Below the pieces are notes generated by a model that was given only the letters and a program-made list of their open reading frames with translations, was not told the DNA's origin and did no database searches. From Ignavibacteriota bacterium (GTDB lineage: Bacteria; Bacteroidota; Ignavibacteria; Tepidaquicellales; Tepidaquicellaceae), in the NCBI GenBank assembly GCA_026390735.1, contig JAPLFJ010000037.1, positions 62,001 through 126,000 on the forward strand: a stretch of 64,000 nt of DNA, read 5' to 3'. This document shows positions 55,602-59,866 of the stretch, one piece after another. The translations under genes and the position numbers were made by a program. Positions within the stretch are counted from its first letter, which is position 1, and each line of letters begins with the position of its first letter.

Positions 55602-57536
55602 ATGCGATTATCAATACACCATATAACTATATTATTATTTATCTCGGCGTCTTTCATTTGCAGGTCTGATAAATCTGATTTATCAGCTCAGACAAACCTT
55701 GAAGTTTTTAATAAATCTATAAATAATTTACCTTCACAGAATAAAATAGATGTAATCCTCGATTCCGCCAAAAAATATTTCAATACTGATATTGTCAGAT
55801 GTATTGCATTCAGTGAACTTGCAATCTCCAACCTTGACGATAAAATCACTGATGAATACAAGGCTGATGTTTACAGTAAGGTATCAGGTTATTATTTTAC
55901 TTCTGGAAATTATTCCAAAGCATTGGAGTATATTCTAATCGATTTAAGGATTCTTGAAAACAATCCGGGTGTTAACGTTCTGAAGATAGGTAGATGTTAT
56001 GTGAATATAGGAGAGATTTACAGAGCTACAACTGACTATGATAATGCACTTTTAAACCTTAATAAATCTGTATCAATTTTCACTGACTTGAAAAACGATG
56101 AAGGTGAAAAAGGTTTGTCAAATTCTTATGAGAGAATAGCGGCGGTATATTTTGAACTTAGTTATAAGATAGATTCCGCACTTGTTATTAAATCTATGGA
56201 CTATGCAAATAAGTCACTGGGATTGTCTGAGAAATATAAAATAAACAGCCGTAAAATAAGCTGCTGGAATATCCTCGGGGCTTGCCAGATTATGAATGAG
56301 AATTATGACAAGGCACTGGAATTATTCAATATGGCGCTAAATGAATCATACAGGGATTCTGCTTATTCGGACAGAAGTAACATTCTGAATAATATTGCAA
56401 GTTGTTACATTAAAATTGAAGATTATAATAAAGCAATTGAGTATGCTCAGATGAGTTATGATGAATCGAAGAAGCGTGGAGTGCTCATCTATGTCAGGGA
56501 AGCTTCATTTTTCCTGTATAAATCCTATCTTGAGTTAAGACAATTCGAGAAGGTCATTTTTTATCTTGATGAGTACAATAAAGTATCTTTGGAACTGTTT
56601 AGTAATGACAAGAACAGGGCAGTTGAATCACTTGAGCAGAAATACAGGAAAGAAAAAATTGATGAGGAACACAGGGATGAGAAAAATAATTTAATTTTCC
56701 TGTCTGTAGGCCTGTTTATAGTCTTTGTTTTTTTAATGGTCATCTTTTTCATGAGACATAAAGCCCTGAAGTTTATCAATAAGGAACTTGAACATAAGAA
56801 TAAGACTATTACTGCTCAGAAAGCTGAACTTGAAGAAGTTAATGCAATGAAAAATAAATTCTTTTCAATCCTTGCTCATGACTTAAGAAATCCGTTTAAT
56901 GGAATCCTTGGATTCCTGGATATCCTTCACAACAGCTATGATACATTAAGTTATGAAGAAAAAAAGCAGTTCATAGGTTATATTCATACATCGGCAAATC
57001 AGGTTTTTAAACTTCTCGACAGATTATTGCAGCTTTCAAGGTTACAGGAAGGGAGATATCAGTTTAATAATGAACTGGTTGATGTTAAAGATCTCACAGA
57101 GCAGATAATCAAACTTCAGGATACAAATGCACGTTCCAAAAGGGTTAGTCTGAAACTGCGTATTTTTGAAAATGTCTTCGTTAATGCTGATAAAACTTCA
57201 CTGGATATAATCTTAAGAAATTTAATCGATAATGCGATAAAATTTACTTCTGCAGGCGGTGAAGTTGTAATATCCTCGGGTTCTAATAATGGAAATGTTG
57301 AGATAATTGTATCTGATACGGGAGTCGGAATGGATCAGAAGGATTCTGATTCTATTTTCAGGCTTGATAAAAAAACAGTCTCAATCGGTACTAACAATGA
57401 AAAGGGGACAGGACTGGGGCTTGCCGTTTGCAAGGAACTGATTGATAAAATGAACGGGAAGATTAATGTCGAAAGCATAATCGGTAAAGGAAGTAAGTTT
57501 ATTCTTACTTTCCCATCCGTTGAGAAAAAATCTTAG
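55602..57536 (+). CDS. Sensor histidine kinase with periplasmic TPR domain
   Basis: A 644-residue membrane kinase. An N-terminal hydrophobic segment (about 6-20) exports a TPR-rich sensor region (about 45-350; e.g. YSKALEYILIDLRILENN, YDKALELFNMALNES, YNKAIEYAQMSYDES), followed by one transmembrane helix (about 364-386), a coiled coil, the H-box FFSILAHDLRNPFNGILGF with His426, and the ATP-binding N, G1 and G2 boxes (NLIDNAIKFTS, VSDTGVGMD, GTGLGLAVC). No response regulator gene is adjacent, so it is an orphan. It converges with feoB, and the two overlap by 4 bases. Confidence 0.92.
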   Translation: MRLSIHHITILLFISASFICRSDKSDLSAQTNLEVFNKSINNLPSQNKIDVILDSAKKYFNTDIVRCIAFSELAISNLDDKITDEYKADVYSKVSGYYFTSGNYSKALEYILIDLRILENNPGVNVLKIGRCYVNIGEIYRATTDYDNALLNLNKSVSIFTDLKNDEGEKGLSNSYERIAAVYFELSYKIDSALVIKSMDYANKSLGLSEKYKINSRKISCWNILGACQIMNENYDKALELFNMALNESYRDSAYSDRSNILNNIASCYIKIEDYNKAIEYAQMSYDESKKRGVLIYVREASFFLYKSYLELRQFEKVIFYLDEYNKVSLELFSNDKNRAVESLEQKYRKEKIDEEHRDEKNNLIFLSVGLFIVFVFLMVIFFMRHKALKFINKELEHKNKTITAQKAELEEVNAMKNKFFSILAHDLRNPFNGILGFLDILHNSYDTLSYEEKKQFIGYIHTSANQVFKLLDRLLQLSRLQEGRYQFNNELVDVKDLTEQIIKLQDTNARSKRVSLKLRIFENVFVNADKTSLDIILRNLIDNAIKFTSAGGEVVISSGSNNGNVEIIVSDTGVGMDQKDSDSIFRLDKKTVSIGTNNEKGTGLGLAVCKELIDKMNGKINVESIIGKGSKFILTFPSVEKKS

Positions 57537-59542
57537 TTCACTCCAAGAAACTGCAATCCGTTAACAACAACGAATGCAAAGAAGTATGCAAGTCCGGAAT
57601 AAATAAATAACTGCAGTATGGGGATTCTCCATCCTCCCGTCTCTTTTTTCGTTATCGCAATAGTGGAAATACACTGAAGTGCAAACACAAAGAAAATAAT
57701 AAGACCTGCTATCGTTGAAGTTGTAAACATGGGCTTATTTGATTCTCCTATCCGTGCCTGACGCATCGCGCTTATGAGCGATTCATTAAGGTTGTCATCT
57801 GTATCCGTAATTTTAAAAATCAATGCCATCGAACTTACAAATATTTCTCGTGCCGCAAATGTGGCTATCAGTGAAACACCCACTCTCCAGTCTAATCCAA
57901 GAGGCTTCATAACAGGTTCAATGAATTTACCTAATTCTGAAGCGTATGAACCCGAAATCCTTTCTGCATCTATTAATTTTGTAATCTGTTCGGTTGTCAT
58001 TTTATCTGAATTCTTTATCTCAGGATTGTTGTTGGGAAAATATGTTAATGCCCAGAGTATTACAGAGAATATCAGTATGGTTGGCCCTGCCTTCCTTATG
58101 TACTGGTAAGCATTATCGTAAGTATTCTTGAAAACGTTTCCTATCTTTGGTATCCTGTACACTGGCAGTTCCATTATGAAAGAAGAATTATCCTCTACTT
58201 TGATAAATGTCTTCTGGTATTTATTAATTACACTCGAAACTACAAATGAAGTTAATATCCCGAATAAATATATTAATGATAGTATTATTCCGCTGATAAG
58301 AAATTTACCCGGTAGTAAGAACGTAAGCAATAATCCGTAAACAGGAAGCCTTGCACTGCAGCTCATTAAAGGAATTATAAATATTGTCAGTATTCTTTCT
58401 TTCTTATTGGTTATCGTTCTGGCTGCCATTATTGCAGGTATGGCACATGCAAACCCTGACAGCATTGGTACAAAAGACCTGCCGTTCAATCCTAATTTGG
58501 ATAATGGCTTGTCTATAAGCATTGCCCCTCTTGCAAGATATCCTGAATCCTCAAGCAGACCTAAAATGAAAAATAATATTAGGATTTGTGGCAAAAATAC
58601 CATAACCGCTCCTGCCCCGCCTATTATTCCGCTCGACAATAAATCCGAAAACCAGTGGTGATTGTGTCCTGAGACTATTAAATCCGACAAGTATCTGAAT
58701 CCTGAATCAACAAGCTCCATTAACGGTGATGCTATCCAGAATATTGACGCAAATAAAACACCCATCACGGAAGCAAAAATGAATATACCCCAGTATTTGT
58801 GAAGCAGTATGCTGTCTATCTTCATCGTCAGATTATCGGGTCTGTTCAGACTCTTTGTTTCACCCTTTATGAATAAACCCATATTTGCATTCTCTAAATC
58901 AGATTTTTTTACGTTTGTATGATGCAGAACGGTATTCTCTATTTCTTCAATATCCTTGTATATCGATATTATATCTGCCTCTTCAAAAGCAATATGATTA
59001 ATATTACTTCCTCTTTCCTGCTTAAGTGTATATTTAATTTCGCTGATTAATTCAAGAATTCCTGTTCCAGTTCTCGGGTCAACCTTGATTACTTTGCATT
59101 TTAATTTATCGGACAATGTGTCAGTATTGATTGTCAGATTCTTATCTTCAAGTATGTCGTTCATAGTAAGCGCAACTATAACATTAAAGCCGCAGTTAAT
59201 AATCTGTTTGGCTAGTAATAAGTGTCTGGAAAACTGTGACGCATCAATCGTAACTACTAAAACAGATGGCTTTCCGTATTCAGGATGCTCAATCAGGTTC
59301 TCAACTGTTACTTTCTCGTCAGGTGAATTAGGCACCATGCTTACAATACCAGGAGAATCCATAAGGTTTCCGGTAATATCAAAATGGTTCAGGAATTTAG
59401 TAATGGAGTATTCTATTGTCGCACCTGGATAATTTACTGTCTTGTACTTCTTTCCGCTGAGGAAATTAAAGAGTGTTGTCTTACCTGAATTAGGCGGTCC
59501 TACTAATATTATTAATGGTTCTTGTGGTTTTTTAATTGACAT
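57533..59542 (-). CDS. feoB: Ferrous iron transporter FeoB
   Basis: A 669-residue Fe(II) transporter. The N-terminal G domain has G1 GPPNSGKTT (15-23), YPGATIEYS (G2, Thr42) and DSPG (62-65, G3). The G4 position reads TMND (126-129) instead of the usual NxxD. A helical insert (about 170-240) leads to the membrane part with the two gate motifs (SFVPMLSGFACAIPAIMAARTI and WRVGVSLIATFAAREIFVSSMA, each shown by position near 355 and 560) and about ten helices. It follows feoA with a 5-base gap. Iron control is suggested by the palindrome before feoA. Confidence 0.94.
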   Translation of the reverse strand: MSIKKPQEPLIILVGPPNSGKTTLFNFLSGKKYKTVNYPGATIEYSITKFLNHFDITGNLMDSPGIVSMVPNSPDEKVTVENLIEHPEYGKPSVLVVTIDASQFSRHLLLAKQIINCGFNVIVALTMNDILEDKNLTINTDTLSDKLKCKVIKVDPRTGTGILELISEIKYTLKQERGSNINHIAFEEADIISIYKDIEEIENTVLHHTNVKKSDLENANMGLFIKGETKSLNRPDNLTMKIDSILLHKYWGIFIFASVMGVLFASIFWIASPLMELVDSGFRYLSDLIVSGHNHHWFSDLLSSGIIGGAGAVMVFLPQILILFFILGLLEDSGYLARGAMLIDKPLSKLGLNGRSFVPMLSGFACAIPAIMAARTITNKKERILTIFIIPLMSCSARLPVYGLLLTFLLPGKFLISGIILSLIYLFGILTSFVVSSVINKYQKTFIKVEDNSSFIMELPVYRIPKIGNVFKNTYDNAYQYIRKAGPTILIFSVILWALTYFPNNNPEIKNSDKMTTEQITKLIDAERISGSYASELGKFIEPVMKPLGLDWRVGVSLIATFAAREIFVSSMALIFKITDTDDNLNESLISAMRQARIGESNKPMFTTSTIAGLIIFFVFALQCISTIAITKKETGGWRIPILQLFIYSGLAYFFAFVVVNGLQFLGVN

Positions 59543-59547
59543 ACAAT

Positions 59548-59769
59548 TTATAACATAACTTCAATACATCTGGCATCATTTCTGCGGATAGCAATAAGAG
59601 CCCCTCTCAGTGAAACTGCAAGAGGATCGTTAAAGATTGATTTATTGATTATCTCAATTTCCTGCCCCGGAGTGAATCCGTATTCGATTACTCTGAATGA
59701 AGATGGATGTGATAAATCAATTCTCTTTATTGTTGCTCTTTGTCCGGAATCTAAGTCTGCTATTGTCAT
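59548..59769 (-). CDS. feoA: FeoA, SH3-like partner of the FeoB transporter
   Basis: A 73-residue cytoplasmic protein with the FeoA pattern: MTIADLDSGQRATIKRID at the start, a middle YGFTPGQEIEIINKS and the closing RRNDARCIEVML. The frame contains TTG-ATG at its start; the ATG at 59769 fits better and gives the usual length. It ends 5 bases before feoB. A 27-base palindrome ends 5 bases upstream of the start codon. Confidence 0.9.
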   Translation of the reverse strand: MTIADLDSGQRATIKRIDLSHPSSFRVIEYGFTPGQEIEIINKSIFNDPLAVSLRGALIAIRRNDARCIEVML

Positions 59770-59774
59770 CAAAT

Positions 59775-59801
59775 TCTTATTTAGATTAAATCTAAATAAG
59801 A
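59775..59801 (-). promoter_or_regulatory. Palindromic operator before feoA, probable iron-dependent repressor site
   Basis: TCTTATTTAGATT and AATCTAAATAAGA (13 bases each, perfect) are separated by a single base, forming an odd-length palindrome. The inner TTAGATTAAATCTAA resembles operators of DtxR/IdeR/MntR-type metalloregulators (TTAG...CTAA). On the minus strand a TTGACT (59822-59817) is 18 bases before a TATTTA (59798-59793) that lies inside the palindrome, so a repressor bound here would cover the -10 box. Factor identity is inferred; no fur or dtxR gene is in the window. Confidence 0.8.
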
Positions 59802-59837
59802 TTCAATCCATTTTCAAGTCAAACTAACACATGTATA

Positions 59838-59866
59838 CTAAAAATCCCGCTGTTTAGACGGGATTT
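59838..59866 (-). terminator. Terminator of the hisS-lgt operon
   Basis: AAATCCCG (59842-59849) pairs with CGGGATTT (59859-59866). On the minus strand a T-run (TTTTTAG) follows, 25 to 50 bases past the lgt stop. Confidence 0.75.

Follow-up and report, generated by a model that had tools for sequence, protein, structure and literature searches.

A perfect palindrome before feoAB in an Ignavibacteriota genome, probably a Fur operator of the Bacteroidota type

Which regulator, if any, reads the long palindrome that lies directly ahead of the ferrous iron uptake genes feoAB in this Ignavibacteriota genome? The window (the whole 64 kb stretch of DNA that was analysed) carries the following features around it.

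59775..59801, strand not applicable: 27-bp perfect palindrome, predicted Fur operator (Fur box) of feoAB, from the sequence and its conservation in relatives
59777..59799, strand not applicable: 23-bp core TTATTTAGATTTAATCTAAATAA, fitting the consensus TTATTwAGAyTnArTCTwAATAA
59779..59797, strand not applicable: 19-bp stretch ATTTAGATTTAATCTAAAT, identical at 17/19 positions to the Riemerella anatipestifer Fur box ATTTAGAATTATTCTAAAT (PMC5609570)
59548..59769, minus strand: feoA, 73 aa, FeoA domain
57533..59542, minus strand: feoB, 669 aa, ferrous iron permease (TIGR00437 over its cut-off)
59843..59865, minus strand: inverted repeat AATCCCG...CGGGATT with a T-run after lgt, from the sequence (the terminator scan did not list it)
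59812..59817, minus strand: predicted -35 (-33) element TTGAAA, its TTG and its distance to the -10 box invariant in seven genomes
59789..59794, minus strand: predicted -10 element TAGATT (TAGATTTA in the Bacteroidota -7 form), within the palindrome
59781..59784, minus strand: transcription start region expected from promoter spacing, about 7 nt past the -10 box, within the palindrome

Positions 59775-59801 read TCTTATTTAGATTaAATCTAAATAAGA, with two perfect 13-base arms around one centre base, and the palindrome ends 5 bases ahead of the feoA ATG at 59769 (minus strand), exactly as an earlier sequence-only reading had described it. The half-sites are two 7-bp elements, TTAGATT and AATCTAA, around one base (7-1-7), with the AT-rich extensions TCTTAT and ATAAGA. 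No other perfect palindrome in the window is as long (the runner-up has arms of 10). Base composition predicts about 0.003 of this kind per 64 kb, and arms of 11 or more never arose in third-order Markov simulations. The 4.02-Mb genome (97% complete) was searched by pattern. TTTAGATTNAATCTAAA matched exactly once, five further places differed from it at two positions and none at one; with TTATTWAGANNNNNTCTWAATAA, the palindrome was the sole match with fewer than two mismatches. In these searches the weaker matches formed a background no richer than that of the reversed control. The single exact match is the one at feoA, and a mobile or repeated element is ruled out by the single copy.

The feoA start is correctly assigned, as the ATG and the residues that follow are conserved in seven genomes. 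The upstream neighbour of feoAB is lgt, on the same strand, and the inverted repeat after lgt is a probable terminator dividing it from the feoAB promoter. Comparison of the seven genomes shows an invariant CTTG, then a constant spacing, then the palindrome. TTGAAA-17-TAGATT is the sole promoter call on the minus strand at the site, although promoter scans are weak evidence (4 found versus 2.7 expected by chance); its TTG, spacing and TAGATT are held in 7/7 genomes, and it loosely fits the Bacteroidota -33/-7 layout. It is thus the most consistent predicted promoter. The sequence-only reading had proposed TTGACT 18 bases upstream of TATTTA. That pair is present as described and would imply a leader of about 17 nt, but is less consistent, because TTGAC is not kept in G009 and G019 whereas the inner TTG is invariant. 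The same reading had placed the start at or just before the coding region, giving a nearly leaderless message; this was overstated, as the spacing of the better conserved promoter points to a leader some 12-15 nt long, which is short without being absent.

A start within the palindrome bears on whether the element could act as RNA, with a transcribed hairpin controlling feoA translation or mRNA stability. A transcribed palindrome would fold into a stem of 12 bp (-11 kcal/mol, z = -3.0). However, a transcript beginning at the predicted start is shorter and folds weakly. Changes at the centre (AATC to AGTC) break the symmetry while the outer sequence stays fixed, and sites of this type lie 0-250 nt from varied genes, often between divergent pairs, which fits a DNA site. 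An RNA hairpin is therefore highly improbable.

To follow the site through the family, feoA upstream regions were collected across it. Each of the genus's other four genomes, like G019 and G009, has the palindrome near letter-for-letter; with the present genome these make seven, across which the operator is invariant while its flanks drift. In many other genera the gene order is fur-feoA-feoB, with the frame TTATTwAGA-5-TCTwAATAA upstream of fur. The consensus motif stands before feoA or fur in 22/22 family genomes with a Fur ortholog; that is, site presence tracks Fur in all Fur-bearing family genomes examined. In G020, the one genome with DtxR and FeoAB of this type but without a Fur ortholog, no site was found. 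A weight matrix built from feoA sites only scores the sites upstream of fur at 18.9-26.7 bits, against a 95th percentile of 6.2 bits for random 200-nt stretches (the 99th percentile is inflated, as some stretches hold the sites themselves).

Relatives have fur, feoA and feoB together, and in the present genome (G000) fur and feoAB are apart; here feoAB lies beside lgt and retains its own Fur box. The genes are apparently separate in G005 too, where fur is on another contig. At the fur gene itself no site was found in the window's genus. A different structure is seen at the fur gene of L016 (1438-1905, minus strand), where a strong GC hairpin with a T-run lies directly before the start codon (CCCCGGATGATAATTTATCCGGGGTATTTTTT followed by ATG; -17.7 kcal/mol, z = -3.4), with a TATATTAT-like box just ahead. 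Five genomes from two genera (L016, L020-L023) have such an intrinsic-terminator-like structure right against the fur start codon; it may end transcription of the aminotransferase gene upstream, act as a fur attenuator, or do both.

The genome encodes two FUR-family proteins, P0003 (Fur) and P0004. P0003 (the Fur ortholog, at G000:C9) matches PF01475 with 104.6 bits and has Fur proteins as its nearest solved structures, though it falls below the NCBIfam Fur equivalog cut-offs (79 vs 146 bits). When aligned to solved structures, the position of PerR D104 is Glu in P0003 and Asp in P0004, a difference that separates Fur from PerR (PMC8638851). P0004 lies in a peroxide setting, beside a ferritin-like gene and a peroxiredoxin gene, and is therefore PerR-like.

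The second protein raises the possibility of a PerR operator, with peroxide-responsive control of feoAB by P0004. PerR boxes have the 7-1-7 form and begin with TTA, so their form is like that of the palindrome, and P0004 is present in the genome. The peroxide setting of P0004 points away from feoAB, however, and PerR orthologs occur in only 6/29 genomes, the site persisting without PerR in most. Wherever a FUR gene is linked to the site, it is the Fur ortholog. As site presence does not track PerR, this is rejected as the primary function and is very unlikely.

The sequence-only reading had favoured a DtxR-family site over a Fur site. An operator of a DtxR/IdeR/MntR-family protein is suggested by the resemblance of the TTAGATT half-site to the TTAGGTT of DtxR boxes, and a DtxR-family protein also occurs in 16/22 site-bearing family genomes. 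The other six, including this one, have the site without a DtxR above the cut-off. No DtxR-family protein (PF01325) was found in this 97% complete genome by a search that works, as it recovers DtxR in 19/29 relatives in the family survey, and G020 has DtxR with FeoAB of this type and lacks the site. In addition, 8/8 dtxR genes examined carry a different upstream box, TTA[AG]G-N4-C[CT]TAA, a box with 0 matches in a further 206 kb of DNA from the family; therefore the DtxR of this family reads another sequence. With no PF01325 protein in the genome, a different box at the dtxR genes of relatives and a site that tracks Fur, a DtxR operator is rejected as extremely unlikely, and a plausible misreading is corrected. 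Typically a conserved TTAGGyATrCCTAA, the box upstream of the family dtxR genes (L165-L172) probably serves autoregulation. The gene after dtxR in L166 resembles one for a metal-binding ABC transporter protein.

The site type recurs well beyond the family. Public genomes contain the exact 23-mer consensus in at least 117 stretches; among the matches listed, 76/80 are Bacteroidota, Ignavibacteriota or Balneola-type by record titles. In 395 genomes of the same phylum it occurs as 19 sites in 18 genomes, against 0 for the reversed pattern. The sites across the phylum are 0-250 nt away from a wide variety of genes, which often form divergent pairs. In the 117 or more stretches, the 147 adjacent proteins include 30 TonB plug, 11 SufB, 8 FUR, 6 FeoB and 3 imelysin proteins; TonB plug, SufB, FUR and FeoB are enriched against rough genome frequencies (P 1e-11 to 1e-36, values that are indicative only because of non-independence among related genomes). 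The eight FUR proteins in this set have 37-46% identity to P0003 and 22-28% to PerR, and by these values are orthologs of P0003, not PerR. Thus, across genomes, the site occupies promoters of iron-uptake, Fe-S and fur genes, as a Fur box does. A frequent position of the 23-mer in flavobacteria (L050, L066, L077 and similar loci) is the gap that separates a TonB receptor gene from a divergent gene for a probable AraC-type regulator, which suggests Fur control of both.

Very probably, then, the palindrome is the operator through which Fur P0003 would control feoAB, a Fur box of the Bacteroidota type, whose frame ATTTAGA-5-TCTAAAT (7-1-7 core) is contained in the exact palindrome. The observations behind this are the sequence, its conservation, the link to Fur, the lack of a link to DtxR or PerR, and the recurrence at iron genes across the phylum. 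The earlier proposal of an iron-dependent operator overlapping the feoAB promoter is in this respect very probably right, given the conservation and the Fur link. From these we infer metal-dependent Fur binding, repression and the start site, as follows. With iron plentiful, an iron-loaded Fur dimer would sit on the palindrome; as the -10 box and the predicted start lie within the operator, bound Fur would cover both and exclude RNA polymerase. When iron falls, Fur would leave the site and FeoAB would be made. The feoAB palindrome is well supported as a Fur operator and is very probably an ordinary iron switch, with a site type already known, in a new lineage, and of low surprise. Its consensus is precise enough for locating Fur regulons across a large phylum in which few have been tested.

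For a Fur, the regulon in this genome appears narrow. No strong site was found elsewhere in it, leaving feoAB alone, and the top secondary sites are inside genes or at gene 3' ends (L175, L176). Among 21 TonB receptor upstream regions of this genome there was one weak candidate only, the Fur-box-like TAATCTGGTATAAGTCTTAATAA at L206:909-931 (10.4 vs 31.9 bits), about 230 nt upstream of a TonB receptor gene (1157-2784) whose frame is split into several ORFs.

A further lead concerns how Fur and its operator change together. In B. subtilis, R61 of Fur and N61 of PerR are the residue that distinguishes Fur from PerR targets (PMC8638851). The equivalent residue is Thr in this Fur and Asn or Lys in relatives, never Arg. 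TTTAGA/TCTAAA is present on both arms in 8/8 genomes with an Asn or Thr Fur and in 0/14 with Lys. G010 has an Asn Fur nested in a Lys clade together with perfect arms, an apparent return to Asn. Tentatively, and with the odds somewhat against it, the Fur of Bacteroidota and Ignavibacteriota might read a distinct code, TTAGAyT-n-ArTCTAA, without the R61 arginine, operator and protein coevolving. The pattern comes from about two evolutionary changes, the placement of G010 is moderately supported (92/71), and the gene that follows the site is a partial confounder of the covariation; it is therefore a lead rather than a result. Possibly a new point of the locus, this covariation offers a natural setting in which to test how the DNA specificity of Fur-family proteins changes.

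Of the known systems, the DtxR/IdeR/MntR box (TTAGGnTAnnCTnACCTAA type) is likewise an AT-rich palindrome with TTAG half-sites, but differs in spacing and core; the relatives' dtxR promoters have TTAGGyATrCCTAA. The classical Fur box TGATAATnATTATCA of E. coli and B. subtilis is likewise a 7-1-7 inverted repeat over an iron-uptake promoter bound by a PF01475 protein (here a predicted binder). Its heptamer is TGATAAT, whereas TTAGATT is found here and does not match it, and the Arg of B. subtilis Fur at position 61 is replaced. A search of the open-access literature for other Fur boxes in Bacteroidota found only Riemerella papers. In R. anatipestifer, regulated promoters served to predict the box ATTTAGAATTATTCTAAAT, and promoter fragments bearing it bind Fur in EMSA (PMC5609570; PMC10986502); feoAB is regulated by Fur and iron and has a Fur box (PMC10434265), and mutation of a Fur box derepresses its target (PMC11967795). 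One Riemerella paper gives the E. coli consensus instead (PMC7976709). The inner bases are ATTAT there and TTTAA here, and the present site differs in being a perfect 27-bp palindrome, in a distant lineage, and predicted. However, the two have in common the ATTTAGA-5-TCTAAAT frame, 17/19 bases, the regulator family, and a position near the start codon upstream of iron-uptake genes, feoAB among them.
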